Assembly (NCBI GenBank): GCA_009377605.1
Contig: WHTT01000028.1
Location: 1 to 64,000 of the forward strand
Source of the DNA: Luteitalea sp.
GTDB lineage: Bacteria > Acidobacteriota > Vicinamibacteria > Vicinamibacterales > Vicinamibacteraceae
Direction of reading: 5' to 3'
DNA: 64,000 bases
Below, one piece after another: positions 17,784-32,223 of this stretch. The first letter of the stretch is position 1; each line of letters begins with the position of its first letter. The translations under genes were made by a program, and so were the position numbers. The notes under the pieces are model-generated. The model did not search any database and had not been told where the DNA came from. It saw only the letters and a list, made by a program, of their open reading frames with translations.

Positions 17784-20700
17784 ATTCCCCCCGCCCTTTG
17801 CCGCAGCCTCCGGCGTTTCGTCTGCCTCAGCCACCGTCACCCGCGCGGCCGTGGTCGATGCAAAGAGGCCTGGCTGGTACATCGGCGCGACCCTGGCAGG
17901 CATCGATCGAAACTCACCGGGCGTGACGACCCTGAGCAGATACGTCAACTCTTGACGCCCATCGTGGAGCTGCTCGAGAAACGCCGCAACGTGCGTGTCG
18001 CGCAGCTCCCGATATCCAACGAACCAGTCGTATCGCCCCTCGTCTTCATCGGCGGGCTCCAGCGTGTAGCGCTCTGGATTTGCCACGGCCTCCGCGCCGG
18101 CTGGCAGCGGGTCCTCGATCATCAGGTGCCGCCAGTCGCGGGATCCTGCGACCACGAGCCGCACGAGCACGAGATCTCCAGGCTTGGCGACACCGCGAAA
18201 CGGCTGGCGCCGGTAGACGATCTTGCCGTCAGACGAGGAGGCCGCTAGCAGAGAGTACTGCCGGCTGATGGCGAGCTTGCGGGTTCCCGTCGCCGGCAGT
18301 CCTTCCGCGGTGTCGTAGTAGTGAGCGGCCGCCGACCAATACAGCGCGCCATCGCCCTTCCTCACGAGGCGGATGTCGTTTGCTCCCTCCTGCGCCGGCG
18401 CTGTGACAACGATCGGATCCGGACTCGTCCAATCAGACGGCGTGAACGTGTGCTGACCAGCACGCTGACCGTTGACCATCACGTCCACGCTGTACGTGCT
18501 CGGCTGTTCACGGCGCGCCCGCATATAGTCGAGGAGCCCGTACAGCACCATCGCGGTTTGCTTGGTGGAAAGCCAATACCCGCCGGTCCGGCTCGCCAGG
18601 AGAAATCGCACCGCGCGCTCGAGGGTCGGATCCTTTGGCGCGTGCGGGGCCAGCGCGCGCACAGCCCAAGCGGTGGCCTCGACAGAGGTATCGATCCAGG
18701 AATCGCCGAGCAGGGGATCACCCTCGGTCGTCCACCACGTGAGCCCGCCTTTGGTGATCGCGGTGTCCAGCAGCTCTCGCGCGAGTGTCGACGCGCGTCG
18801 GTCCTTGGCAAGATCGAGCGCAAGGAGGAGGAGCGCACGCCCGTAAGCGCTCATACGGCCGCGAGCCGCCCAGAGCGTCTCGAGCGCGGCGCGCTGGTCG
18901 AATGCCGCCGCCTCGAGGCCCTCCCCGCGCCCGAGGGCGAGGACATACGTTGCGTACGCCTTCAACTCTGGCACGGCGCGCGGATACGCGGCGTACAGGG
19001 CAGCGAGCGCGTCCGCCGCACGCTGCAGTCGTGATTGATCGACCGCGAGCCCGGAGCGCCGCGCTTCGATCAACGCCCAGAGCGCGTAGGCCGTCATGAA
19101 CGGATCGCTCTCCGCCGTCTTCCACCAGCCCCAGCCGCCCTCGTCATTTTGCAGGTCGACCAGCCGTTTCAGCCCCTCGGCTGACCTGCGGTCGACGAGC
19201 TCGGCTCGTTCCGTTGGCGCGATCTGCAGATCCGTGAGGGTACGCAAGACCAACAGGTTCGGCACGAAGCTCGAGACGGTTTGCTCGGTGCACGCGTACG
19301 GGTAGCTCACCAGATAATCGAGGGCGCCGAGCATCGCGCCCGCCAGTGATGGAGCCAGGGTCACCCGAATCTGCCGCGCGGCGGGATTGGCACGATCCGG
19401 GACCGCGAGCGACACACGGTCGGCCGTCTCTGCGTGAAGCAACCCGGAGACGCCCTCTTCCCGTGCAAGCCCGTAGGGGAGGACGGGCAGCGTGAGCTCG
19501 ACGTTGTCGGAGTCTGGTCCGGCGGTCAGCGCCGATCCAAGGAGGGTGGCATTTCCAGGCCGCTGGGCGACGAGCGGCCACGAGTGGCGCTGTGCTCCCC
19601 CTTGATTGAGAATGGAGCTCTGCGTGTCGACAAAGCCCTCGTCTCTGGCAAGGCCCTTCGTTTGGAGCGACACATTGACCTTGGTGGCCCCCTCGAGATA
19701 ACTGTGTGCGACGGTCGGCACTCGCACGCGGTCGCCTTCTGTCAGGAAGCGCGGTGGCACGATCCGAAGGATGACGTCCTTGGTGGTCGTGGCGCGCGCC
19801 ACCGCGGTGCCCGCCCGTGTATCCGTCGTGATCGCACGCGCCGTCACTCGCCAGGTCGTGAGCGAGTCGGGGTAGTCGACCTGCACGGTGGCCGTTCCCG
19901 TATCGTCTGTCATCAGGTCGGCCACCCAGTAGATGGCGTCCGGAAACTGCTTGCGAACGAAGGGGCGCTCGGGGCGCTCCGCTTTGAAGTCGGCGAGTGT
20001 CAGCGGCCGACGTCTCGTCGCGAGCTTCAGCGTCCGCGTCCCGGCATAGCCGATGAACGAATAGTTGCGGGAGAACTGCGTGCCGACCCGGCTGTACTCG
20101 TTGCGATAGAACACGCGCAGCGGATCCGGCGTCGTATCCGGCTTGACTCCGTAGACGGCCTCGTCCACGACGCCAACGCTCACCTGCGCTGGCACCGGAT
20201 TGCCGGAGCTATCGAGCGTTCGAATGGTGAAGACGCCAGGCTCCCGCGGCTTCGAGAGTGCCGCTCGAGCGGTGACCGTCACCTGGAGCCCACGCGTCAC
20301 GGGTGGCACGTCGACACGCCGCTCCGCCTGGTACACGCGATCATCCTTGAGGAACACCATGTTGACCCACGTGTTACCCAGATCCAGCTCTTCGATCGGG
20401 ACCTCCAGCAGCGCGCCGGCCGGCAGCCGCGAGACTCGATGCCACGTAATCGTCCGCCCTTCCTTGGTCACGAGCATCGGTCCGGTGGCATCAGCGCCAC
20501 GGATGACGAATCGTGCGGTATCCCCCGGTTGATAGCTCTTACGGTCGGGAATCAGCTCGAGCTGTTGCTCGCGATCCCACGTGCTCTCTTCTCCGGTCGT
20601 CGGGACCCACAGCCAGGTGCTGCTCTTGACGATCCGATCGCCCGAGCGCGCGCTTGCGTAGAGACGATAGCTCCCACCTTCAGCGGGGACCCTGGTGTTC

Positions 20701-22526
20701 CACACCGCCCGCCCCGAGGCGTCCGTGGACACAACCCCCTGAGCCATCACCTCCTCGCGCTCCTCGCTACGTCCGGCGGCGTCATCATAGGTATACCAAT
20801 GGCGTGCGAGCCAGACGTTCACCGGAAGATTCACCTGGGGTTGACCTGCATAGTCGACGACCCGAAGCCTGAGCGACGCGGGCGTTCCGGGACGGAAGAC
20901 GAAACGGCCGGCCGTGGCCGCAATGAGAAAATCGCCGTAGGTGGCAACCGTGCGCCCGGCCCCCGAGACTTCCTGCGCGCTCTGATCGGTGACGCGCGCT
21001 TCAATCGTTGCCGTGTAATCACTGGCTTGGTCGTCCACGGCAAGTGGGACCTCCACGGTCGCCTCTCCGCGGGCATCGAGCTTGGCGGTCGTGGCAAAGA
21101 TCTGCTCGCCACCGTAGCCGTAAACCGGCCCGCCCTCCTCATCGGCCTCGTCTGCCGAGTCCACCCACTGGAGCGGGGAGCTGTAGAACGATTTGTGAAG
21201 AACGATCTTGACCGGCGCGCCGCTGACGGGTTGACCGAAGTAATATCGCGCGCGGACCGTGGCACGCACGCGCGTGCCCTGTCGCGCGAATCTCGCAGAC
21301 GAGTCGACGGTCACCTCGAGCTCGGGCTTGCGATACTCCTGAACCTCGAACGACCCGAGATAGGTTTCCTCGCCACCGCTCGTCATGGCGATGGTGTAGT
21401 AGCCCAAAGCGGCGGAGGGTGGCAGTGTGAGGTCGGCCGCGATGGCGCCAAACGCGTCGACGCGCCGCGTGCTCCGCAACAGCACCTTGTCGCGCGCATC
21501 TTTCACGCGCAGCTCCACCTCCGGCGACCCGAACGGCTGCAGCTGGCTTCCCTCCCGCGAGCGGAGGATGGCTTTCAGGTGCACCTCGTGGCCAGGGCGG
21601 TAGATGGGGCGGTCTGTGTAGACGTAGGCCACCGGCTCCGCTGCGGGCGCTCTGAAGTTCCAGGCATAGGGATCGGTGGCCACGGCCTGGCTGCCGCAGT
21701 GCGCCACCGCGACGACCTGGTCAGAGGCGATCTGACCGACGCTGGCCGTGAAGAGGCCGTCTGCATTCGACGCGCCTTCGGCGATCGGCTTTTGGCCGGC
21801 GAGCAACCGCACGCGGCAATCGGGCACCGGCTCGCCCGTGAAGCGGTTGACGGCATACGTGAGAAAGCGGCCGGGCGCCGCTTTGGTGACGAGGCCGATG
21901 TCGGAGACGAGCACGATCGTGTACGCGCGAAGCGGCGGATTGACGGCTTCGACGACGTACACACCGGCGCCTGGAAGGTCGAGAGGCAAGTGCCGGTACT
22001 CTGCCTCGCGGACGGGGGGCAACTGCTCGCGCCACGATGCCACCAGTCGCTCCCGATTGAGCAGCGGGACCTGGGCAAAGGCGTTGTAGCTGAGGACCTG
22101 GCGCTGCTGCACGGCGGCACGGTCGAGGCGCGCACGGCGCGCCTGCCGCTGCTCGAGGCTCACCTGCCGGCGCAGGAAGTCGCGGAGCTCTTGCCGGCGG
22201 GCAGCCTTCCATCGAGCGATCCGCTCGAGCCAGGTCTCCTCTTGGGGAACGACCGGCTCGGGGCTCCCGAGCACGTGCGGGTCCCGGAGACCTTCGAAGA
22301 ACGCGATGGGGTCCTTGACGCGATAGATGCGAAAGTCCAGGTGGTCCACTTCCTGGAACGTCAGCCACACCTGCGCGCGCTCACGTGTGTTGAAGATCTC
22401 GCTGCTCGCCAATGAGAAGCCGGCGCGTCGCTGCGGCTTGGTTTCCTGGCCGAGCGCGGGCGTGCCAAGACACGATACGAACAGGAGGATCGCCGCGGCA
22501 CGAGTCATAAAGAAGTGCGCCCTCAT
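17781..22526 (-). CDS. Bacterial alpha-2-macroglobulin with thioester motif
   Basis: 1581 residues from ATG 22526, which overlaps the preceding stop as ATGA and so is probably translationally coupled. A signal peptide is followed by MG-type domains (bait region around residues 500-700 by analogy) and an alpha-2-macroglobulin core segment (ITTDTRAGTAVARATTTKDVIL). The thioester sequence PYACTEQTVSSF has CTEQ at residues 1079-1082, in an alpha/alpha-toroid domain with EGGWGWWKTAESDPFMTAYA. The family traps proteases covalently in the periplasm. The upstream neighbour encodes a DUF1175 protein, the same pairing as yfaS-yfaT in Escherichia coli. Expected location is periplasm or membrane-anchored; no lipobox is evident. 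Confidence 0.92.
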   Translation of the reverse strand: MRAHFFMTRAAAILLFVSCLGTPALGQETKPQRRAGFSLASSEIFNTRERAQVWLTFQEVDHLDFRIYRVKDPIAFFEGLRDPHVLGSPEPVVPQEETWLERIARWKAARRQELRDFLRRQVSLEQRQARRARLDRAAVQQRQVLSYNAFAQVPLLNRERLVASWREQLPPVREAEYRHLPLDLPGAGVYVVEAVNPPLRAYTIVLVSDIGLVTKAAPGRFLTYAVNRFTGEPVPDCRVRLLAGQKPIAEGASNADGLFTASVGQIASDQVVAVAHCGSQAVATDPYAWNFRAPAAEPVAYVYTDRPIYRPGHEVHLKAILRSREGSQLQPFGSPEVELRVKDARDKVLLRSTRRVDAFGAIAADLTLPPSAALGYYTIAMTSGGEETYLGSFEVQEYRKPELEVTVDSSARFARQGTRVRATVRARYYFGQPVSGAPVKIVLHKSFYSSPLQWVDSADEADEEGGPVYGYGGEQIFATTAKLDARGEATVEVPLAVDDQASDYTATIEARVTDQSAQEVSGAGRTVATYGDFLIAATAGRFVFRPGTPASLRLRVVDYAGQPQVNLPVNVWLARHWYTYDDAAGRSEEREEVMAQGVVSTDASGRAVWNTRVPAEGGSYRLYASARSGDRIVKSSTWLWVPTTGEESTWDREQQLELIPDRKSYQPGDTARFVIRGADATGPMLVTKEGRTITWHRVSRLPAGALLEVPIEELDLGNTWVNMVFLKDDRVYQAERRVDVPPVTRGLQVTVTARAALSKPREPGVFTIRTLDSSGNPVPAQVSVGVVDEAVYGVKPDTTPDPLRVFYRNEYSRVGTQFSRNYSFIGYAGTRTLKLATRRRPLTLADFKAERPERPFVRKQFPDAIYWVADLMTDDTGTATVQVDYPDSLTTWRVTARAITTDTRAGTAVARATTTKDVILRIVPPRFLTEGDRVRVPTVAHSYLEGATKVNVSLQTKGLARDEGFVDTQSSILNQGGAQRHSWPLVAQRPGNATLLGSALTAGPDSDNVELTLPVLPYGLAREEGVSGLLHAETADRVSLAVPDRANPAARQIRVTLAPSLAGAMLGALDYLVSYPYACTEQTVSSFVPNLLVLRTLTDLQIAPTERAELVDRRSAEGLKRLVDLQNDEGGWGWWKTAESDPFMTAYALWALIEARRSGLAVDQSRLQRAADALAALYAAYPRAVPELKAYATYVLALGRGEGLEAAAFDQRAALETLWAARGRMSAYGRALLLLALDLAKDRRASTLARELLDTAITKGGLTWWTTEGDPLLGDSWIDTSVEATAWAVRALAPHAPKDPTLERAVRFLLASRTGGYWLSTKQTAMVLYGLLDYMRARREQPSTYSVDVMVNGQRAGQHTFTPSDWTSPDPIVVTAPAQEGANDIRLVRKGDGALYWSAAAHYYDTAEGLPATGTRKLAISRQYSLLAASSSDGKIVYRRQPFRGVAKPGDLVLVRLVVAGSRDWRHLMIEDPLPAGAEAVANPERYTLEPADEDEGRYDWFVGYRELRDTHVAAFLEQLHDGRQELTYLLRVVTPGEFRSMPARVAPMYQPGLFASTTAARVTVAEADETPEAAAKGGGN

Positions 22527-23299
22527 GGTAACCGCAGACGATACACACCGAGAAACCGCGGGTTGACGGCGAGCGGCCGCCACCGCGGCTCTGGATGACG
22601 CATTAGATCGCCGAGCCGGACTTTTCGTGCTTCGCCTTGCGCGGCCTCGTCTATTTCCTCGGTAATCGGACCTGTGTGGTAGACGACCCAGTCGTTCCCT
22701 TCTTCTTCGAAGACCGACCGCCCCACGAATACCATCAGGTGATACGGCTCGTCCTGCTGGGGCTGGTAGAAGACGAGCAGATCGCCTGGCCGCCGCGCGG
22801 CGACATCGCGACCGACCCGCGTGGCATTGTCGCGCACGATCGTCTGCGCATCCGCGAACTCGGCATGGCGTACATCGCCGTCGTCCGACACGCGAAAGAT
22901 CGGCACCATCCCATCACGCGCCGCCGGACGGTTGACGACTTCGGGGTACACGCGCGTCATGGGAAGGCGCATGCGTCGGAGCCACTCCGTGGTGTGCGGG
23001 CGCAGCGCCTCGCGTGCGGCGTGACGCACGAGTCCCGCACAATCGGTCACGTCAGTCGTCGGCCGGTAGAACTGCGCATCTGCGAGCAGCACGAACCATG
23101 CGCGAAATGCTTCGCGATCCGCGGCGTCAGGCGACCGACGCGCACTGTCACCGCCCCTCTCGCGCGGAGACGAGGCTGGCGTACCGGATCGTCGTGCCGC
23201 GCCATCCACGCGCTCGCCAGGCCCGGGACCAGCACCGCATGCCGCAGTCAAGCTGGCCGCTAGGACGGCGCCGCTCGCGAGGAGAACGTGCTTGAACAT
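22523..23299 (-). CDS. DUF1175 (YfaT-like) lipoprotein
   Basis: About 258 residues; ATG 23299 (or 23305) opens a lipoprotein-type signal (MFKHVLLASGAVLAASLTAAC). After a Ser/Arg-rich linker comes the DUF1175 domain: FRAWFVLLADAQFY, the motif TDCAGLVRHA with the cysteine at a position like that of NlpC/P60 enzymes, ARRPGDLLVFYQP, a conserved PYHLMVFVG and a late WRPLAVNPRFLGVYR. DUF1175 genes accompany alpha-2-macroglobulin genes of the YfaS type, and here the two genes overlap by four bases. Peptidase activity is suggested by Cys and His placement but is not established for the family. Confidence 0.82.
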   Translation of the reverse strand: MFKHVLLASGAVLAASLTAACGAGPGPGERVDGAARRSGTPASSPRERGGDSARRSPDAADREAFRAWFVLLADAQFYRPTTDVTDCAGLVRHAAREALRPHTTEWLRRMRLPMTRVYPEVVNRPAARDGMVPIFRVSDDGDVRHAEFADAQTIVRDNATRVGRDVAARRPGDLLVFYQPQQDEPYHLMVFVGRSVFEEEGNDWVVYHTGPITEEIDEAAQGEARKVRLGDLMRHPEPRWRPLAVNPRFLGVYRLRLP

Positions 23300-23302
23300 C
23301 GG

Positions 23303-23435
23303 CATACGGCCCAACGATCCGCTGAGCTTCGCGGCTGTGTCGCTGCTGCTTCTCGCCGTGGGCATGGCCGCAAGCTACCTCCCCGCGCGCCGCGCCACGA
23401 AGACCGACCCGATCGTCGCCCTCCGGTGCGAGTGA
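23303..23435 (+). pseudogene. 3' end of a MacB/FtsX-type ABC permease gene (copy 1)
   Basis: Read on the plus strand the DNA encodes RPNDPLSFAAVSLLLLAVGM, then ASYLPARRATKTDPIVALR and a TGA at 23433. This is the last helix and conserved tail (PARRAxxxDPxxALRxE) of the macrolide-export-type permeases abundant in Acidobacteriota. Nothing of the preceding gene remains. The left edge coincides with the start codon region of the DUF1175 gene on the other strand. A second copy lies at 23870-24003. Confidence 0.75.
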
Positions 23436-23642
23436 GCCGCACGAGCAACACGTTCGTTTCCTCTGCCGACGACTGCCACAGCTCAGCCGTCGAAGACGTA
23501 CCGATCACACAAATCAGATGTATGCTGACACAAAGCTGATCACGCATAGGTTGGACCGCCATCGATGATCTGAGGGGTCTCATCGGCCGGGTCGTCGGGT
23601 TGCATGTAGCGACGCGAACGCCAGGCGTGGAAGGAAGCCAGA

Positions 23643-23846
23643 ATGTCGGTTGCGAAGGTGTCCGAGATCAGCGCGACCTCGTCGAAGAGCTTCGAGGACG
23701 CGATACAGCAGGGTCTCGACCGAGCCGCCAAGACGGTGCGCCATATTCGTGGCGCGTGGATCAAAGAGCAGCACGTGCGCTGTGACGAGGGCCGCATCAC
23801 GGAGTATCAGGTGAACATGATGGTGACGTTCGTGCTCGACGACTAA
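23643..23846 (+). CDS. Dodecin family flavin-binding protein
   Basis: 67 residues, the usual dodecin length, with AAGGAA before ATG 23643. The sequence runs through the whole fold: SVAKVSEISATSSKSFEDAI, then VRHIRGAWIKEQHV with the tryptophan that stacks on the flavin, and ITEYQVNMMVTFVLDD. Dodecins are dodecameric cytoplasmic particles that store riboflavin, FMN or coenzyme A. The gene stands alone between two direct copies of an ABC-permease 3' end. No promoter is evident in the 207 bases upstream, where I see nothing else. Confidence 0.95.
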   Translation: MSVAKVSEISATSSKSFEDAIQQGLDRAAKTVRHIRGAWIKEQHVRCDEGRITEYQVNMMVTFVLDD

Positions 23847-23869
23847 TGCAGCACGCACACGGGAACTGC

Positions 23870-24003
23870 CATACGGCCCAACGAGCTGCTGAGCTTCGCG
23901 GCGGTCCCGCTGCGGCTTTTCGCCGTGGGCATGGTCGCGAGCCATCTCCCAGCACGCCCGCGCCACGAAGACCGACCCGATTGTCGCTCTTTGCTACGAG
24001 TGA
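23870..24003 (+). pseudogene. 3' end of a MacB/FtsX-type ABC permease gene (copy 2, frameshifted)
   Basis: A diverged direct repeat of 23303-23435, starting at the same CATACGGCCCAACGA boundary and ending at the equivalent TGA. Translation begins RPNELLSFAAVPLRLFAVGM, but an extra base in the PAR-PRH segment shifts the frame, so it is non-coding. Together with copy 1 it brackets the dodecin gene. Confidence 0.7.
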
Positions 24004-24090
24004 GCAGAAATGGGGCGGGATCCCAGCCGACAAGGCGGGCGTCAAATTGCCAGAGAGCCCGATTGCGTCGCACTATGACAACACTGCGGC

Positions 24091-24162
24091 TTGACCTGGC
24101 GTCCATGGGGCTTGTAGCGTACTGAAAGTAAAGACTCGGTGTGCTCGAGGCGAAGATAGAAT
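24091..24162 (+). promoter_or_regulatory. Possible promoter region of the cysteine leader
   Basis: TTGACC at 24091-24096 could be a -35 element with a weak -10 near 24113-24118. Alternatively TAGAAT at 24157-24162 resembles a -10 without a good -35. Either would give a transcript that includes the leader ORF starting at 24177. The two predictions are weak and mutually exclusive. Confidence 0.25.
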
Positions 24163-24176
24163 CTTGTGGTAGAGTA

Positions 24177-24281
24177 ATGTCAATGCGTATCGCGCAGCCC
24201 AACTGCGTCTGTTGTTGTTGGATGGCCAGAATTGGCCCCTTGGGCTGCGGGTTGTGCGTACAGACTGAACAAGTGCACTAA
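24177..24281 (+). CDS. Cysteine-rich leader peptide of the sulfur assimilation operon
   Basis: A 34-codon ORF (a second in-frame ATG is at 24183). Its cysteines are at positions 10, 12, 13, 14, 24 and 27, with the run NCVCCCW encoded by TGC GTC TGT TGT TGT TGG (24204-24221). It ends at TAA 24279-24281, 29 bases before a strong intrinsic terminator, and 124 bases before cysH. This is the layout of an amino-acid-sensing leader: ribosomes short of Cys-tRNA would stall on the cysteine run. Polycysteine leaders are known upstream of sulfur genes in mycobacteria; I know of none described in this lineage. The ribosome site is weak (GGTAGAG). Confidence 0.75.
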   Translation: MSMRIAQPNCVCCCWMARIGPLGCGLCVQTEQVH

Positions 24282-24325
24282 AGACGAGACGCACCACACG
24301 CAAGGGCTTCGAAAGGCCCGGGGGC
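24235..24325 (+). promoter_or_regulatory. Predicted antiterminator pairing
   Basis: GCCCCUUGGGCU (24235-24246), inside the leader ORF six codons after the cysteine run, can pair with GGCCCGGGGGC (24315-24325), the left arm of the terminator. The helix has eleven pairs, two of them G-U, with one bulged U. The two structures are mutually exclusive. A ribosome halted at codons 12-14 would leave the segment free to pair, whereas a ribosome reaching the stop codon or past codon 20 would cover or release it and allow the terminator. Confidence 0.55.
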
Positions 24326-24360
24326 TCAGGTGAACGAGCTCCCGGGCCTTTCTGTTTTTT
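24311..24360 (+). terminator. Intrinsic terminator in the cysH leader
   Basis: A 17-bp stem (24311-24327 with 24336-24352, a single G-U pair), eight-base loop and the tail TGTTTTTT, followed by a second T-run at 24366-24372. It lies between the cysteine-rich ORF and cysH with no other gene in front that needs terminating on this strand, so it is best explained as a conditional terminator. Confidence 0.9.
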
Positions 24361-24405
24361 CGGGCGTTTTTTCTGGTGCCGGCGAATCGTGGAACAGGTG
24401 GCGTG

Positions 24406-25146
24406 ATGACAGACGTTGTGAATGCACCACTGAGTGTCGAGCAGCTTGAAGAGGCCGCTACCCGTTTGGAAGACTGGTCCGCCGCCGACATCCTCGGTTG
24501 GGCTTGCGACCAGTTCGCGCCGCGGCTGACGATGGCCACGGGCTTTGGCGCCGAAGGATGCGTGCTGGTCGATATCATCGGCACCAACCGGCTTCCGATC
24601 GATCTGTTCACCCTCGATACCGGCCTGCTGTTCCCCCAGACCTACGCGCTCTGGCGCACACTGGAGACGCGCTACGGCGTCACGATTCGCGGCGTACGGC
24701 CAGCGCTCACGGTTGAGCAGCAAGCTGCAGCGCACGGGGCCGCCTTGTGGGCGCGCGACCCGGACGCCTGCTGCGCGATTCGCAAGACGGTGCCGCATCG
24801 TGCCGAGCTCCAAAAGTTCGACGCGTGGATCAGCGCGATCCGGCGCGACCAGACGCCTGAGCGCCGCACGGCTCGCGTGGTGGAGTGGGACGCGAAGTTC
24901 GGCCTCGTGAAGGTCAATCCGCTCGGGCGCTGGACCAAAGAGGAGATCTGGAGCTACATCGAAGCGCACGAGGTGCCAGTGAACCCGCTGCACCAAGAGA
25001 GCTATCCGAGCATCGGGTGCATGCCGTGCACGAGTCCGGTCGCCCCCGGGGAGAACGAGCGCGCCGGACGGTGGCGCGGACGGTCGAAGACCGAGTGCGG
25101 CTTGCACGACCGCGCGGTGTGGCGGCTCGCGCAGGTAACCGGGTAA
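24406..25146 (+). CDS. cysH: Adenylyl-sulfate (APS) reductase
   Basis: 246 residues; ATG 24406 follows AGGTGG. Cytoplasmic enzyme reducing APS to sulfite with thioredoxin-type electrons. Seen: the PP-loop-type nucleotide region (LTMATGFGAEGCVLVDII), FTLDTGLLFPQTY, the CCAIRKTVP cysteine pair and GCMPCTSP pair that together bind a 4Fe-4S cluster (marking APS rather than PAPS specificity), and the C-terminal catalytic motif KTECGLH. First structural gene after the attenuator. The next genes make siroheme and the sulfite reductase, so this is the assimilatory sulfate branch. No ATP sulfurylase gene is in the window. Confidence 0.94.
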   Translation: MTDVVNAPLSVEQLEEAATRLEDWSAADILGWACDQFAPRLTMATGFGAEGCVLVDIIGTNRLPIDLFTLDTGLLFPQTYALWRTLETRYGVTIRGVRPALTVEQQAAAHGAALWARDPDACCAIRKTVPHRAELQKFDAWISAIRRDQTPERRTARVVEWDAKFGLVKVNPLGRWTKEEIWSYIEAHEVPVNPLHQESYPSIGCMPCTSPVAPGENERAGRWRGRSKTECGLHDRAVWRLAQVTG

Positions 25147-25261
25147 GAATCTGCGCCGCGTGATGTGGACGAATCCTTTTGGGGAGGGCTCGTCCGCGGG
25201 AGCGCGCGGAGACGGGGGCAGGCGCCCTGACTGGGGGAAGGGGCCTGCCTCCGACGTTGTG

Positions 25262-25318
25262 GGTAGGGCCGCCTCGCCGAGGCGGCCGTGACGGCGCGGG
25301 AGGCTGACGCGCCCTACC
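25262..25318. repeat. GTAGGGCCGCCTCGCCGAGGCGGCC repeat
   Basis: Palindrome GGCCGCCTCGCCGAGGCGGCC plus a GGCGCG...CGCGCCCTACC partner in the 210-base gap between cysH and the siroheme gene. Nothing else is seen in the gap. Confidence 0.8.
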
Positions 25319-25356
25319 TTGCGGGCCAGGTGGTATGAGGACCAAGAGGTATGTGC

Positions 25357-26031
25357 GTGAGCACTGACGTTCGGTTGTTTCCGGTCTTCCTCAAGCTGGC
25401 TGGCCGGCCAGTGTTGCTCGTCGGCGGGGGCACCGTCGCGGAGAGCAAGCTGGACGGCCTGCTGCAGGCGGGTGCCGAAGTGACGGTCGTTGCGCCGGCG
25501 ATCCGCTCGGGGCTCGCGGGTCCCAACGTCACCCTGATCCGTCGCGCGTTCGCGCCCCAGGATCTGAATGGCAAGTGGTTCATCGTCGCCGCGGCGCCGC
25601 CCGCGGTGAATCGCGCGGTCGCGGAGGCGGCGGAGGCGCGCAACCTGTTCGTCAATGCCGTCGACGATCCGCCGAATGCCGGGGCGTACCTGGGTGGGGT
25701 GCTTCGGCGGGGCGACGTGACGGTGGCAATCTCGACGAGCGGCCACGCGCCCGCGTTGGCCGGTCTGGTGCGGGAGGGCCTGGACGGCCTGCTGCCGCGT
25801 GAGCTCGACACATGGGCATCGCTGGCGCGCGCCGTGCGTGCGAAGTGGCTTGCCGAGCGCGTGCCCATGCCAACCCGCCGACCGCTCCTGCTCGATGCGC
25901 TGAACCGGCTCTACGAGCCGATTCGGGTCGCGTTGCCGGGAGGCCGCGGCGTTGCCGCGTCTACCGGGCGCCAGGGCCAGCGCCAGGCGGGGCGCGCGGT
26001 CGAGCCCGAGGTAGGGGTAAGGATTTCGTAA
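25357..26031 (+). CDS. Siroheme synthase N-terminal domain (precorrin-2 dehydrogenase/ferrochelatase)
   Basis: About 224 residues. GTG 25357 is seven bases after AGAGG; ATG 25351 is the alternative but sits too close. The Rossmann motif LLVGGGTVAESKLDGLL and the segments FVNAVDDPPNAGAYLGG and VTVAISTSGHAPALAG are those of the CysG N-terminal/Met8 domain, which oxidises precorrin-2 with NAD and inserts iron to give siroheme. The C-terminal helical part is followed by a Gly/Arg-rich tail. The methyltransferase half of CysG is encoded separately by the next gene, whose ATG overlaps this stop by one base. Confidence 0.9.
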   Translation: MSTDVRLFPVFLKLAGRPVLLVGGGTVAESKLDGLLQAGAEVTVVAPAIRSGLAGPNVTLIRRAFAPQDLNGKWFIVAAAPPAVNRAVAEAAEARNLFVNAVDDPPNAGAYLGGVLRRGDVTVAISTSGHAPALAGLVREGLDGLLPRELDTWASLARAVRAKWLAERVPMPTRRPLLLDALNRLYEPIRVALPGGRGVAASTGRQGQRQAGRAVEPEVGVRIS

Positions 26032-26801
26032 TGCGTGGATGTGTGTTTCTCGTTGGTGCTGGGCCGGGCGATCCCGAGCTGCTCACGCGCAAGGCCGCAC
26101 GTTGTCTTCAGGAAGCAGATCTGGTGCTCTACGACGCGTTGGTGTCGCCCGAAGCGCTCGCGCTTGCGCCTCGAGCCCAACGCTTTCAGGTCGGGAAGCG
26201 CGCCGGCCGACCCTCCATCCAGCAAGGAACCATCAACGAGCTGATGATTCGTGCAGCGCGGCAGGGTAAGCGTGTCGTGCGGCTCAAGTGCGGCGATCCG
26301 TTCGTGCTGGGACGCGGCGGGGAGGAGGCGGTTGCGCTGCGTGCCGCAGGTATCCCCGTGGAGGTCGTGCCCGGCGTGACGAGCGCCTCCGCCGCACCGG
26401 CGCTGGCCGGCATTCCGGTCACCCACCGTGGTTATGCGTCAGGCGTGCTGCTCGTATCGGGCCATGATCCAGAGGTCTACGGCGAGCTGCTCGGTGCGGC
26501 GCCGCCGCAGCATGTGACGATTGTCGTGCTCATGGGCATCCAGCACCGCGATGACATTGCGCGCCGGCTCATGGCTCATGGCTGGGCGCCGACCTCGCCG
26601 GCGGCCATCGTCTTTGGCGCGTCGACGTCCAGTGAAAGCACGTGGACAGGCACGCTTGGTGAGATTGGGAATGCGGCACTGCCGCCGGGCGATCTGCCGG
26701 GAACGATCATCGTCGGCGAGGTGGTGCGGTTGCGCGCGCTGATTCACACGGTGGAAGCAGAGGAAGGTTCGGACTACGAGGGCTTCGCGTGCAGAGAATA
26801 G
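26031..26801 (+). CDS. cobA: Uroporphyrinogen-III C-methyltransferase
   Basis: 256 residues; ATG 26031 shares its A with the upstream TAA, with AAGGA just before. Uses S-adenosylmethionine to methylate uroporphyrinogen III to precorrin-2. The SUMT signatures are complete: FLVGAGPGDPELLT at the N-terminus, LVLYDALVSPE, VRLKCGDPFVLGRGGEEA and VEVVPGVTSASAAPALAGIP with the T-H-R that follows, then VLMGIQHRDDIARRL. With the upstream gene it supplies siroheme to the sulfite/nitrite reductase encoded 154 bases downstream. Confidence 0.95.
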   Translation: MRGCVFLVGAGPGDPELLTRKAARCLQEADLVLYDALVSPEALALAPRAQRFQVGKRAGRPSIQQGTINELMIRAARQGKRVVRLKCGDPFVLGRGGEEAVALRAAGIPVEVVPGVTSASAAPALAGIPVTHRGYASGVLLVSGHDPEVYGELLGAAPPQHVTIVVLMGIQHRDDIARRLMAHGWAPTSPAAIVFGASTSSESTWTGTLGEIGNAALPPGDLPGTIIVGEVVRLRALIHTVEAEEGSDYEGFACRE

Positions 26802-26933
26802 AACCACGAAGAGCATGGAGGATTAACCACGAAGAACACGAAGGACACGAAGAAGAACCCATGAATTCTCTTCGTGATCTTCGTGGTTGATCCTTCGTGA
26901 TCTTCGGGTTGATGCCTCGTGAGCTTTGTGGTT
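26802..26933. repeat. ACCACGAAG-type repeat hairpin
   Basis: Several units of ACCACGAAGAACACGAAGG followed by complementary CTTCGTGATCTTCGTGGTT units, forming an imperfect hairpin between cobA and the reductase gene. It could tune downstream expression; it encodes nothing. Confidence 0.8.
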
Positions 26934-26955
26934 ACGGCGCGCAAGGAGAAAGACA

Positions 26956-28806
26956 ATGGCGGCTATCGACGACATCAAGACGCTGGGGCGAGGGCAGCTC
27001 TCGTTTGCGGATGAGCGAGAGGTCGACGACTTCGTCGAGGTGCTCGGCCGCTACGAGCGCGGGGAGATCTCGCCCGACGAGTGGCGGAAGTATCGCCTCG
27101 TGCGTGGCACCTACGGCCAACGGCAAGAGGGCACGCTGCAGATGCTGCGCGTGAAGGCTCCGCAAGGCATCCTCAGCGGGGACCAACTTCGCGCCTTGGC
27201 AGACGCCGCCGAGCGATACTCGCGCGGGTTCGGCCACATCACGACGCGACAGAACATCCAGTTCCACTTCATTGAGCTGGACGATGTGCCGGATGTCATG
27301 CGGGATCTGGCGGCAAGCGGCATGACGACCCGCGAGGCGTGCGGCAACTCGGTCCGCAACATTACGGGCTGCCCGTTTGCCGGTGTGGCGCGGGACGAGG
27401 TGTTCGACGTCACACCGTACGCGGAGGCGCTCACGCGTTACTTGCTCAGGGGTCCGCTCAGCGCGATCCTGCCGCGCAAGTTCAAGATTGGCTTTGAAGG
27501 CTGTCAGGAAGATCACGCGTTTGCCTCCATCAACGACATCGGTTGGTGGGCGCAGGTGCGCGAGGTGGACGGCCGCACCGAGCACGGATTCCGCGTCACG
27601 GTCGGTGGCGGCACGTCGATCTTGCCGCGCTCCGGCATGGCGCTGTTCGAGTACGTGCCGGCCGCTCGCATGTTCAACGTCGCCGACGCGATCCTGCGCG
27701 TCTACCATCGCTTCGGCGACTACGAGCACAAGCAGCGGAACCGCATGAAGTTCTTGATCAAGGCGATGGGGTGGGAGAAGTACCGCGAGGAGGTGCTGCG
27801 CGCGTACGAGGAGCTGTGCGCGGAGGGCGGCGGCACGCCGCTTCCGTTCGATCCAAACGATCCACCTGTTGAGAATGCGCCAGATTGGGGATCACCAGAG
27901 GCGCCGGCGCTCGAGGCGACGGCGGCGCGGGCAGCGGCATCGTCCGTGAAGGGGCCTGGCATCATGCCGCAGGTGAGCCCATGGCTGGTCTGGGATGCGC
28001 GCGCCTTTGCCGCGTGGCAGGAGACCAATGTCCTTCCACAGAAGCAAGAGGGGTACGTCAGCGTTCTCGCGCGCGTGCCGCTCGGCGACGTGACCGCGCA
28101 GCAGTTTCGCGTGCTGGCAGACCTGGCCATGGCGTTTGGCGACGGGATGGTCCGGATGACGCCGGATCAAAACCTCGTCTTCCGTTGGGTACGGGAAGAG
28201 CAAGTAGCGGGGTTCTATCGCCACCTCGCGGCGGCGAGCCTCGGTCGCCCCGACGCGCAAACAATCGCGGATGTCGTCAGCTGCCCGGGAGCCGAGTCGT
28301 GCCGACTGGCCGTGACCGCGTCGCGGGGGCTGGGACGCCTGCTGACCGACCACCTCGAGGCGCACCCAGAGATCGTCGAGGCGGCCCGGTCGTCGCACAT
28401 CAAGATTAGCGGCTGCCCGAACGGCTGCGGTCAGCATCACGTCGCCGACATCGGGTTCCAAGGCAGCATTCGCAAGTTGGGGGATCGCGCCGTACCACAA
28501 TATTTTGTGATGGTCGGCGGCGGTGTGGCTGCCGAGGGAGCCAACTTCGGCCGTGTCGCCGCCAAGGTGCCGGCGCGTCGAGGTCCTGAGGCGCTGGAGC
28601 GTCTCATTGCCCTGTATCGCGATCAGCATGCACCGGAGGAGACTGCCGGCGAGTTCTTCCGCCGTATCGATTTCGCGGTCGTCAAGAAGACGCTCGCGGA
28701 CCTCGAGCAGTTGTCCGCCGAGCAGGCGCAGCCCCAGGACTTCATCGACCTCGGTGAGGACACCGAGTACAAGCAGGTGATCCTCGATGGGGAGTGCAGC
28801 GCGTGA
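26956..28806 (+). CDS. Siroheme/4Fe-4S sulfite or nitrite reductase (hemoprotein)
   Basis: 616 residues; ATG 26956 follows AAGGAG. Two ferredoxin-like half-domains (ARYSRGFGHITTRQNIQFH type, and again GMVRMTPDQNLVFRWV) flank siroheme-binding regions. The cluster ligands are Cys443-x5-Cys449 (SCPGAESC) and Cys487-x3-Cys491 (GCPNGCGQH), the last also carrying the siroheme. This is the six-electron reduction of sulfite to sulfide (or nitrite to ammonia) with ferredoxin. The operon with cysH and siroheme genes favours sulfite. An Ala-rich linker of about 40 residues joins the halves. The convergent glycosyltransferase gene begins 13 bases after the stop. Confidence 0.92.
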   Translation: MAAIDDIKTLGRGQLSFADEREVDDFVEVLGRYERGEISPDEWRKYRLVRGTYGQRQEGTLQMLRVKAPQGILSGDQLRALADAAERYSRGFGHITTRQNIQFHFIELDDVPDVMRDLAASGMTTREACGNSVRNITGCPFAGVARDEVFDVTPYAEALTRYLLRGPLSAILPRKFKIGFEGCQEDHAFASINDIGWWAQVREVDGRTEHGFRVTVGGGTSILPRSGMALFEYVPAARMFNVADAILRVYHRFGDYEHKQRNRMKFLIKAMGWEKYREEVLRAYEELCAEGGGTPLPFDPNDPPVENAPDWGSPEAPALEATAARAAASSVKGPGIMPQVSPWLVWDARAFAAWQETNVLPQKQEGYVSVLARVPLGDVTAQQFRVLADLAMAFGDGMVRMTPDQNLVFRWVREEQVAGFYRHLAAASLGRPDAQTIADVVSCPGAESCRLAVTASRGLGRLLTDHLEAHPEIVEAARSSHIKISGCPNGCGQHHVADIGFQGSIRKLGDRAVPQYFVMVGGGVAAEGANFGRVAAKVPARRGPEALERLIALYRDQHAPEETAGEFFRRIDFAVVKKTLADLEQLSAEQAQPQDFIDLGEDTEYKQVILDGECSA

Positions 28807-28819
28807 GGTGCCCGCGTGC

Positions 28820-29749
28820 CTACGTGGGCTCGCCCGACCTAAAGGTCGGGCGGACAACATCCCGAAGTACCCCGAGGTACGCCTTGGCATCCTGCGGGCG
28901 GCCGGTGACGATCGACGCAGCCGCGCGCATGATCATGCCCACCGTGATGAGTACCCGCAGCGTGACACGGGTGCCAGTGCCGTGGTGCTTGTCCGCGTAC
29001 CTCAGCAAGTTCCGATACCACACGCGTGAGAATGCCCCCAGGCCCAGCGCGCGCATCGCGACGCCGCCTTCATGCACGAACGGCGCGTCTGGCGTGTAGC
29101 CGATGCGCCAACCGGCACGTTTCAAGCTCCGGCAGAGATCGACGTCCTCGTACCACGCTGGATGGAACTGCTCATCCAAGCCGCCGGCGCCGGCGAATGC
29201 TTCACGACGCAGCATCAGACAGGCAGCGGCCGGCTGATCCACGTCCTGCGGCTTGGTGAGGTCGAGATCGAGTGCGAGGTAGCGCCGGCTGATCGGGTTG
29301 CCAGGCCAAAGCTTATCGATCAGCAGCAAATCGACTACCCACGTTGCGAGCGTGGGAAAGCGGCGGACGGTGAAGCCCCGCTGAATGCCGCCATCCTCAT
29401 CGACGAGGCACCCTCCGACGGCGCCGTAATCAACGTGCGCGTCGAGAAATGCCGCGAGACGATCGATGCCTCCCGGCTGTGCTCGACAATCGGGGTTCAG
29501 CAAGAGGAAGAAGCGGCCACGGGCCCGTGCAGCCGCCCCATTCACGGCGCCGGCAAATCCAAGGTTGCGCGCCTCGCGAACGATTGTCGCACGCGGTGAC
29601 GCGCGCGCCGCCTCGTCTGCGCTACCGTCCGTCGATGCGTTGTCGACGACGATGACCTCGTAGCGATCGGGATCCAGGGAGCCTAGACAGCGGCCAATGT
29701 ACGCGCCGGCGTTCCAACTCGCGATCAGGATGGAGACCTCCGGCGGCAT
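28820..29749 (-). CDS. Glycosyltransferase family 2
   Basis: 309 residues from ATG 29749. The GT-A start EVSILIASWNAGAYI, VIVVDNASTDGSADE, the DXD-like LLLNPDCRAQPG and the later HPAWYEDVDLCRSLKRAGWRI define a rhamnosyl/N-acetyl-transferase-like GT2 of the cell-surface type. A hydrophobic C-terminal segment (VLITVGMIMRAAASIV) suggests membrane association. It stands alone, convergent with the reductase gene. The last residues (RPTFRSGEPT) are encoded by a palindromic repeat, so the natural C-terminus may have been replaced. Confidence 0.9.
   Translation of the reverse strand: MPPEVSILIASWNAGAYIGRCLGSLDPDRYEVIVVDNASTDGSADEAARASPRATIVREARNLGFAGAVNGAAARARGRFFLLLNPDCRAQPGGIDRLAAFLDAHVDYGAVGGCLVDEDGGIQRGFTVRRFPTLATWVVDLLLIDKLWPGNPISRRYLALDLDLTKPQDVDQPAAACLMLRREAFAGAGGLDEQFHPAWYEDVDLCRSLKRAGWRIGYTPDAPFVHEGGVAMRALGLGAFSRVWYRNLLRYADKHHGTGTRVTLRVLITVGMIMRAAASIVTGRPQDAKAYLGVLRDVVRPTFRSGEPT
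28831..28852. repeat. CGCCCGACCTAAAGGTCGGGCG hairpin (copy 1)
   Basis: Palindrome with a three-base centre, within the 3' end of the glycosyltransferase gene. Its partner copy lies at 29799-29818, so the gene is bracketed by the same hairpin. Confidence 0.8.
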
Positions 29750-29798
29750 CGGCGTGGTTTACCTACAGGCGGTCGTCCTCGTGCCTGGGCGCTGTAGG

Positions 29799-29818
29799 CC
29801 CGACTTTTAGGTCGGGCG
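29799..29818. repeat. GCCCGACTTTTAGGTCGGGC hairpin (copy 2)
   Basis: Second copy of the palindrome at 28831, six bases after the stop codon of the SGNH hydrolase gene on the minus strand, in terminator position but without a T-run. Confidence 0.75.
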
Positions 29819-29823
29819 CAAGC

Positions 29824-32223
29824 TCACTGGCCCAGGATCTGACTGATCTTGTTGTAGACCTGCTGTGCCATGGCGTTGTACCCGTCCTGGGACGGATGCA
29901 GCCCGTCGGCGCTCATCTCAATCCCACTCCAGTTGATGCGGAAGATGCCCTCCGCCTGCGTGAGGGCCTCGATCCGATTATTCAGCTGTGCGACCAACGC
30001 GGGGTTCCTTCGGGGCTCGCCGGTTATCTCATCGTCTTCGACCGGTGTGAGCTTGCAAATGACAACGACCTTCGCTCGTGCCTGTGCTTCGCGCACCATG
30101 TTGCGCAGTGCACCGTGCGCCCGTTCGATTGCCGTCGACGGGTCGGGTCGTGAGAGATCGTTGACGCCTTCGAGCAAGACGACGAGGTCGTACTCCGGAT
30201 CCTCGTCCAGGACGTCAGGAAAGCGCGTCTCACCGGAGTTGCCGCCGCAATTGGCGCTCGATGCGCACTCTCCGCCGACACCCCGGTTGCGAACGGTCAC
30301 ACCGCCAGCAGCGAAGCGAGGGGCGTCCGCCAGGCGCTGCAGGAGACCTGCGGGATACGGCGTCATGGCACGCATCGACTGAATCGTGCAGCCGCTCCCG
30401 AGACTGCACTCGCGAAACGAGGTCGTCCCCGCCGTGATGCTGTCTCCGAACGTCAGCACATGGAAGTTGTAGCTGAAGGCAGAGGAGGCGGTCTCGCCGT
30501 GACCATCGGCATTGGTCACGGCCACCGACACGGGACCCGTGCGCTTACCGGGCGCGGCCGGCGTCACCGCCACGATCGTGGCATCGTCGATCACACGGAC
30601 GCTACGGGCGGCCGTACCGCCAACGGCAACCGTGGCGCCCTGCTGGAAGCCGCGTCCGCGGATTGTGATCTGCGTGCCGCCACTGAGGCGGCCAGTGTCC
30701 GGCGCGACTGACGAGATCTGCAGGGGCGAGGCCGGCGATGGCGATCCGACCGGCAGTGCACCCCACGGCACACCCGCGCTGGCGTGGCCGCCATCCAAGC
30801 CTCCCCAATAGACGGCTCGCTCGGCCAGGAATGGCAGCGGCGAGCTGCCAACGGAGCGGATCGTGGTTGCGAACCGCTGGTTGCTCGCTTCTGGGTAGAG
30901 CGGTCTGCCGTTGTCGTCGGTCGCCCCCATGTACAACGTGTAGCGGGACTGGGGCGGCACGGTGAGTGGATGCACGGCGCCTGTCCCGTCCCAGCGGACC
31001 ACGTGCACGCGCAGCTCCAGCGGCGTCGCATGAGGGTTGGAGATCAGAAAGAACGTGTCATAGGGACCGCCGGCGAGGCCGGCGAGTGCGCCCTGGATGC
31101 CTTCGGCGAAGGCCCACGCGGGCGACAGCGCTGGAACGCCCTGCACGGTGTGACCGTCGGCAGGGACCAGGCTTCCGTTGACGAGCCAGTACATCGCCCG
31201 TTCCGCGACAATCGGCAGGCTCGGGTCGGCGCTCTGCGCCGTCATGGAGAACCCGGTCGCGCCGAGCTCCGGCACGTCGAGGCGGACCGAGATGGTTCGG
31301 CGGTTCTTTGCCTGGACGGGGAAGTCGCGCTGCACCACGCCGCCGCCATCCTTGAAGAACGAGACGTGCACGGACGTGTCTTGCGCGTTGGGGTTTTCGA
31401 GCAGCAGAAAGGTCTCGAATTGCAGCGACGCGTTGCCACTGGTGGCGCCCTCGCCGAAGTACCACGTCTGCGCCGGCGTGCGTGTGCCGGTGCTGTCGGT
31501 GCCGCCGGCAAAGCCGTTCCAGTACATGGCGCGCTCGACCGCGATTGGGTGGTCCGACGTGATTGTCGTCGAGAACTCCGCATTGCGGAACTCGGCCGGG
31601 ACATCCTCCTGGCCATTGACCCACACGGTGTTGCGCGAGAGCGGCTGCAGGACGCGCGTCATCGAGCGAGGCGCGCCGCCCGCGGCCGGCAGGAACGTCA
31701 GCGTCACGGTTGCCGGCACCTGGTGCGGATTGACCAGAAGGATGAACGTTTCCCAGAAGCCGGAGGCGCCCTCCGCGAGTTGCCAGCTGGTTGACAACGC
31801 CGTGAGCCCGAGGGCGTTGTGGCCAGCGCCACGCTCACCGTTCGGCCAGTACATCGAGCGCTCGACGACGATCGGTACGTTGTTGGTGGAATCGACGCGC
31901 GCGGACACCGCGCCATTGATGTTGTTGGGGAAGAACTGCGCGAGGCGCAGCGTGTACCTGCTGTGCGCACCCACCGCGAGGGGGACGGATGTCTCGGTGC
32001 CGGCTCCTGGCTCCGGGAGGAGCGTCACGGTGACCTCGGCGTTCTCCGCGGTCGGATTCGCGATCAGGATCTCTTCGTCGAAGACGGCGTTCTGTGCGCC
32101 CTCGGCGAGATACCAATGGACGTAGTCGCCCGGCGTTTGCCCGGCGACCGGCGCGGTCGAAATGGTGACGAGCAGGAGTGCGAGAAGGCTGATTTGAATG
32201 AAAAAAGCGTAATGCCGCTGCAT
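29824..32223 (-). CDS. Secreted SGNH/GDSL hydrolase with repeated beta modules and an IPT domain
   Basis: 799 residues; GGAG before ATG 32223, then a signal peptide. Four repeats of about 110 residues follow, each with WxxAEG, ETFxLLxNP and a closing VERxMYW block (residues about 35-475). Next comes an IPT/TIG immunoglobulin-like domain (ISSVAPDTGRLSGGTQITI), then a GDSL esterase domain: block I VLTFGDSITAG with the Ser, GVNDLS as block III, and DGLHPSQDGY with Asp and His. Cysteines near the active site may form a disulfide. Likely an extracellular esterase acting on acetylated polysaccharide, with the repeats for adhesion. The substrate is inferred only. Confidence 0.88.
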   Translation of the reverse strand: MQRHYAFFIQISLLALLLVTISTAPVAGQTPGDYVHWYLAEGAQNAVFDEEILIANPTAENAEVTVTLLPEPGAGTETSVPLAVGAHSRYTLRLAQFFPNNINGAVSARVDSTNNVPIVVERSMYWPNGERGAGHNALGLTALSTSWQLAEGASGFWETFILLVNPHQVPATVTLTFLPAAGGAPRSMTRVLQPLSRNTVWVNGQEDVPAEFRNAEFSTTITSDHPIAVERAMYWNGFAGGTDSTGTRTPAQTWYFGEGATSGNASLQFETFLLLENPNAQDTSVHVSFFKDGGGVVQRDFPVQAKNRRTISVRLDVPELGATGFSMTAQSADPSLPIVAERAMYWLVNGSLVPADGHTVQGVPALSPAWAFAEGIQGALAGLAGGPYDTFFLISNPHATPLELRVHVVRWDGTGAVHPLTVPPQSRYTLYMGATDDNGRPLYPEASNQRFATTIRSVGSSPLPFLAERAVYWGGLDGGHASAGVPWGALPVGSPSPASPLQISSVAPDTGRLSGGTQITIRGRGFQQGATVAVGGTAARSVRVIDDATIVAVTPAAPGKRTGPVSVAVTNADGHGETASSAFSYNFHVLTFGDSITAGTTSFRECSLGSGCTIQSMRAMTPYPAGLLQRLADAPRFAAGGVTVRNRGVGGECASSANCGGNSGETRFPDVLDEDPEYDLVVLLEGVNDLSRPDPSTAIERAHGALRNMVREAQARAKVVVICKLTPVEDDEITGEPRRNPALVAQLNNRIEALTQAEGIFRINWSGIEMSADGLHPSQDGYNAMAQQVYNKISQILGQ

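Follow-up and report, generated by a model that had tools for sequence, protein, structure and literature searches.

We found that the cysH-MET8-cobA-sir operon in the window (the whole stretch of 64,000 nucleotides analysed here) is very probably controlled by a ribosome-mediated transcription attenuator, which is predicted to sense charged tRNA-Cys. An earlier reading made from the letters of the DNA (the sequence-only reading) had proposed such attenuation, and both the sequence and the computations support it through the anatomy of the leader, its conservation, its recurrence in relatives and its predicted folding. Classical trp/his attenuators combine alternative 1:2, 2:3, and 3:4 helices with regulatory codons and masking by a stalled ribosome. 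The leader in the window contains a run of codons for the end product, a terminator between the ORF and the first structural gene, a protector 1:2 helix, and an antiterminator that folding favours when the ribosome is on the regulatory codons.

Overall organization of the leader and the operon

The elements of the leader and the genes that follow it are arranged as below.

24167..24175, + strand: extended -10-like element TGG-TAGAGT, a putative promoter element read from the sequence
24183..24281, + strand: leader ORF of 32 aa, MRIAQPNCVCCCWMARIGPLGCGLCVQTEQVH and a stop codon, opening MRIAQPNCVCCCW..., placed by sequence and sister-species comparison
24193..24202, + strand: segment 1, CGCAGCCCAA, just before the Cys codons; 10/10 conserved in the sister species
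24204..24218, + strand: regulatory codons TGC-GTC-TGT-TGT-TGT (Cys-Val-Cys-Cys-Cys); 15/15 identical in the sister species
24231..24249, + strand: segment 2, ATTGGCCCCTTGGGCTGCG, pairing with segment 1 (via 24240-24249) or segment 3 (via 24231-24247)
24311..24327, + strand: segment 3, the left arm of the terminator; 16/17 conserved; the antiterminator pairing uses 24314-24330
24336..24352, + strand: segment 4, the right arm of the terminator; 17/17 conserved in the sister species
24353..24371, + strand: T-rich tail, TGTTTTTT and then a second T run at 24366-24371
24406..25146, + strand: cysH, phosphoadenosine/adenosine phosphosulfate reductase (PF01507, E 4e-45)
25351..26031, + strand: MET8/SirC-like siroheme synthase, precorrin-2 dehydrogenase (PF13241, E 7e-25; PF14824 weak)
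25812..26801, + strand: CobA-like uroporphyrinogen-III methyltransferase (PF00590, E 9e-50)
26956..28806, + strand: sulfite reductase, NIR_SIR (PF01077, E 2e-55; PF03460, E 3e-45)

The Pfam domains agree with the earlier naming of all four downstream genes as cysH, siroheme genes, and sulfite reductase. CysH has, by eye, the CC and CxxC motifs of the 4Fe-4S type, and the listed start of the CobA-like ORF is probably too early. The window comes from the genome of a soil bacterium of the class Vicinamibacteria (Acidobacteriota); the closest named genome is that of Luteitalea sp. Dino_bin50, with a CysH identity of 78%.

In the proposed mechanism, the leader ORF would be translated from a leaderless or nearly leaderless mRNA that starts at the ATG at 24183 or immediately beside it. 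With ample cysteine, the ribosome would pass the Cys run and segment 1 (24193-24202) would pair with segment 2 (24240-24249), upon which segments 3 and 4 would form the 17-bp terminator and RNA polymerase would stop before it reached cysH. Under a shortage of Cys-tRNA, the ribosome would stall on 24204-24218 and cover segment 1; with segment 1 masked, segment 2 would pair with segment 3 (24314-24330), the terminator would not form, and the operon would be transcribed.

The leader ORF and its start

The ORF of 34 codons with a Cys-Val-Cys-Cys-Cys run and six Cys residues reads at 24177-24281 as it had been described (MSMRIAQPNCVCCCWMARIGPLGCGLCVQTEQVH and a stop codon). The reading frame stands, but 24177 is the less likely start codon: the sister species has ATA in place of this first ATG, which makes the one at 24183 the probable true start. 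Counted from 24183, the Cys residues of the run are codons 8, 10, 11, and 12.

The -10-like element ends 7 nt before the ATG at 24183, and the stretch 24162-24176 is identical to the sister species at 14/15 positions, compared with 22/54 for 24105-24158. The leader L172 carries the same TGGTAGAGT at 9 nt before its start. A generic sigma-70 scan found no promoter at the leader of the window. TTGAC is situated 30-110 nt before the Cys run in 31 of 40 leaders versus 5% of random stretches; such a -35 box is absent at the leader of the window, which has the extended -10 element instead. In a search that was free in its choice of start, most of the best-scoring -10 boxes were placed 6-14 nt ahead of an in-frame start codon. 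Leaderless translation is likely because these promoter elements sit just before the start codons, and the mRNA of the window's leader probably begins at the 24183 ATG or directly beside it, with little or no untranslated sequence in front. The order of ORF and terminator given earlier is kept, with the correction that the transcript is probably leaderless.

Terminator and alternative helices

Segments 3 and 4 form an intrinsic terminator (24311-24352) of 17 pairs, 12 of them G-C, followed by TGTTTTTT, in agreement with the 17-bp terminator with T-runs that had been placed at 24311-24360. The lone difference of segment 3 in the sister species is a deleted G at 24311, and the first T run of the tail is kept there while the second is not. 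The 11-bp antiterminator described between 24235-24246 and 24315-24325 is also present, with one bulged T, and the best 2:3 duplex is longer: 24231-24247 pairs with 24314-24330 at -23.3 kcal/mol, where shuffles give -17.5 (p = 0.043, a value for this single leader). While these two helices were borne out, the sequence-only reading had overlooked a protector helix, in which segment 1 is the perfect 10-bp complement of TTGGGCTGCG (24240-24249). Since the 1:2, 2:3, and 3:4 helices are all present, the leader contains the full set of four segments known from classical attenuators. The entire leader is more stable than 200 dinucleotide shuffles (z = -3.6).

We performed a folding walk on the transcript as it stands before segment 4 is made, giving the ribosome a footprint of 29 nt. 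The probability that segment 3 is paired upstream reaches 0.70-0.71 when Cys codon three or four (24213/24216) occupies the A site and is 0.09 with the ribosome at the stop codon. Accompanying this change, the 1:2 pairing is 0.92 with the ribosome at the stop and 0.00 with the ribosome on the Cys run. With the A site at 24204-24210, the antiterminator pairing rises little, to 0.27-0.30. In the completed transcript, the terminator has a probability of 1.0 at equilibrium wherever the ribosome sits; hence, the switch would rely on the 2:3 helix forming before segment 4 is made, an assumed order of events under which the dominance of the terminator at equilibrium is what a kinetic switch would be expected to give.

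A different output is conceivable for the same elements. The polycysteine leaderless ORFs of mycobacteria (Canestrari 2020) control the translation of the downstream gene, as cited in PMC9031893 and PMC13236596, and the leader of the window likewise looks leaderless; a stalled ribosome might thus expose the ribosome-binding site of cysH, with the hairpin acting as a translational block or being incidental. However, a strong GC stem with a T tail exists before the operon and after nearly every Cys-rich leader found, and the complement of segment 2 is located in the terminator arm, not at the cysH start codon. In addition, the stem leaves the start of cysH uncovered, as it lies 54 nt upstream of it. 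We give translational attenuation a small chance and retain transcription attenuation as the preferred reading.

Conservation and recurrence in Vicinamibacteria

Compared with the sister species, segment 1 and the Cys run are unchanged, the stretch 24229-24250 around segment 2 is identical at 22/22 positions, and the terminator arms are identical at 33/34. In contrast, divergence is marked in the rest of the ORF, its tail part (22/31 identical), as well as in the spacer (10/19) and the upstream DNA (22/54). Nine aligned leaders of one family gave no useful covariation, since the subgroup that can be aligned shows no variation in segment 2 and hardly any in the terminator. A DNA similarity search with the leader reaches the sister species only (2/193 genomes), which means that an ordinary homology search misses this class of leaders.

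Short ORFs with Cys runs and terminators nevertheless exist upstream of cysH-region operons in many relatives, where the leaders no longer align. We examined 58 cysH-region loci of the class, taking an ORF as Cys-rich when it has at least three or at least four Cys within six residues. A strong terminator follows 25 of the 33 short ORFs under the stricter rule and 32 of the 133 under the looser one; for the other 19 amino acids pooled, the looser rule gives 75 of 12,794 ORFs at the same loci. The distance from the Cys run to the terminator arm is nearly constant across the leaders, at 80-111 nt. A pattern built from the Cys codons and the terminator arms only was then scanned over 192 Vicinamibacteria genomes (Acidobacteriota) and matches 72 of them, in 52 of 104 genera, while the reversed pattern gives two matches. 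The next gene at 28 of 30 examined loci belongs to sulfate assimilation or cysteine synthesis, namely cysH, cysD, siroheme synthase, a TauE-type permease, or a cysK-family PLP-dependent synthase; the other two loci have a redoxin gene and a gene whose protein matches no Pfam family. The search upstream of cysH/cysD/sir in related genomes that had been suggested along with the attenuator was thus strongly positive. The window's own genome has no second site with the strict or the looser pattern of Cys run plus terminator, and no leader of this kind at its ATP sulfurylase locus.

These counts also bear on whether the Cys-rich ORF is a chance frame, the hairpin being a plain terminator of upstream transcription or the expression platform of an unrelated riboswitch. 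Cys-rich short ORFs do arise in GC-rich DNA, and about 100 of the 133 have no terminator; even so, the association of ORF and terminator is specific for Cys, the genome-wide pattern exceeds its reversed control, the Cys codons are conserved, and the downstream genes are sulfur or cysteine genes at nearly all examined loci. A plain terminator of upstream transcription fits poorly with the neighbouring upstream gene, DUF1175 (22523-23365), which is on the opposite strand, and a riboswitch platform with the Rfam search, in which no riboswitch or T-box matched at curated thresholds in positions 20000-32000 of the window and ten related loci. The probability of this explanation is close to negligible.

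Copper-responsive Cys motifs are thought to act via the nascent peptide in some bacteria, and a Cys-rich nascent peptide might here sense the state of a metal or redox instead of Cys-tRNA. Polycysteine leaders with terminators precede genes for redoxin (TlpA-like), peroxiredoxin, and possibly rhodanese at L185, L220, L221-L223, and L211, as such sensing would lead one to expect. On the other hand, the peptide outside the run is not conserved between lineages, in contrast to the consecutive Cys codons and their fixed spacing to the terminator, and nearly all targets make cysteine, which makes metal or redox sensing very improbable. That thiol-redox genes lie behind polycysteine leaders suggests that they share the cysteine signal.

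Recurrence outside the class and helices across leaders

Raw matches in other Acidobacteriota occur in 16 genomes, close to the reversed-pattern control, and for this reason a site was counted only if it combined a Cys ORF and a terminator with a sulfur gene. About nine sites show this full arrangement before sulfite reductase or cysH; L204-L207, L213, and L219 were rejected as leaders under the same demand. In a class that contains an Ignavibacteria genome, the pattern matches 19 of 197 genomes, and the genes behind the polycysteine leaders include sulfite reductase, cysK-like genes, and what looks like a serine acetyltransferase (genes named by eye). The leaders of this class are L225-L231, L233-L240, L243, L244, and L250, with three in a single genome (G545). 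At L037, on a contig that is filed under Pleurocapsa (cyanobacterium, MAG), sulfite reductase follows a terminator and a short, Cys-rich ORF with a weaker Cys run; the assignment of this contig is putative.

The 2:3 duplexes of 39 leaders are more stable than those of their shuffled versions (mean z -1.54), with a Fisher p of 3e-12 that is overstated because the leaders are related. In a set of 74 leaders, the pairing of segment 3 falls from 0.68 for a ribosome on the Cys run to 0.49 for one at the stop and is higher on the run in 59 of them (Wilcoxon p 5e-8, for related and not independent leaders). The difference between stall and stop was not significant against shuffled leaders in the first 39 (p 0.087), while both the set of 74 and the direct duplex comparison reached significance. 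The 1:2 protector was not above shuffles across the 39-leader set (mean z -0.46), compared with the 10 perfect pairs of the window's own helix.

Comparison with known attenuators

In the case of uORFC-8-2, located before cysS in Rhodobacterales, tandem Cys codons and an intrinsic terminator led to a prediction of ribosome-mediated Cys-tRNA attenuation (PMC8632094). Both systems place an upstream ORF with Cys codons before an intrinsic terminator, but there are clear differences. uORFC-8-2 concerns only cysS in one alphaproteobacterial order and has two Cys codons, at positions 14-15, whereas the leaders here have 3-6 Cys codons, precede sulfate assimilation and cysteine synthesis genes, and occur in other phyla, with several operons per genome among the relatives; the leader of the window lies upstream of cysH and has no Rfam match at its site.

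Mycobacterial polycysteine leaders were first predicted without a conserved terminator hairpin (PMC1262725). The leaders described here resemble them in the polycysteine ORF, in being apparently leaderless, and in placing several cysteine-metabolism operons under one signal, and differ from the translational leaders of mycobacteria in the intrinsic terminator and the complementary antiterminator segment. With the trp/his attenuators the leader of the window shares the three helices and regulatory codons that a stalled ribosome would mask; unlike those, it has cysteine as its predicted amino acid signal, starts probably without a 5' UTR, and has segment 2 inside the ORF, about 30 nt before the stop.

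We found no cysteine attenuator described for Acidobacteriota in a literature search that covered mainly freely accessible papers, so an earlier prediction is possible. The sequence-only reading had taken the terminator version to be undescribed, which holds for Acidobacteriota as far as this search goes and not for the kind as such, given the prediction for Rhodobacterales cysS. Terminator-based cysteine attenuation is thus a known kind, found here in an apparently unreported form that is used repeatedly across the phylum.

It is likely that leaderless polycysteine leaders with intrinsic terminators define a cysteine-responsive set of operons that spans much of Acidobacteriota and the Ignavibacteria lineage and controls cysH, cysD, siroheme genes, sulfite reductase, TauE-type permeases, cysK, serine acetyltransferase, and some thiol-redox genes; this set may replace a CysB/CymR-like regulator. 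In a 2010 survey, almost no predicted attenuator of Acidobacteria had an assigned function (PMC2965389). One class now has, by way of a simple search, a clear signal, target pathway, and predicted mechanism, which makes cysteine regulation directly testable in an abundant, little-studied soil phylum. Our results suggest that polycysteine leaders are found repeatedly in phyla that are far apart, acting on translation in mycobacteria and on termination here; these two outputs bear on the repeated origin of attenuators.

Additional observations

In one family of the order, a small protein of about 100 aa, DUF2061-like by eye, is encoded between the polycysteine leader and cysH (L118, L119, L121, L125, L128, and L129); it may be part of sulfate uptake or assimilation. 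In a sister genus (G002, G003, and G004; leaders L256, L257, and L157), the polycysteine leader precedes the gene of an ABC-type substrate-binding protein and not cysH. Upstream of the cys operon in the window, two direct repeats of ~135 nt (23303-23437 and 23870-24005), 85-88% identical, lie 567 nt apart. One of them translates to ...LLLLAVGMAASYLPARRATKTDPIVALRCE and a stop codon, the other is a decayed version, and both look by eye like remnants of the C-terminal end of a MacB/FtsX-type ABC permease.
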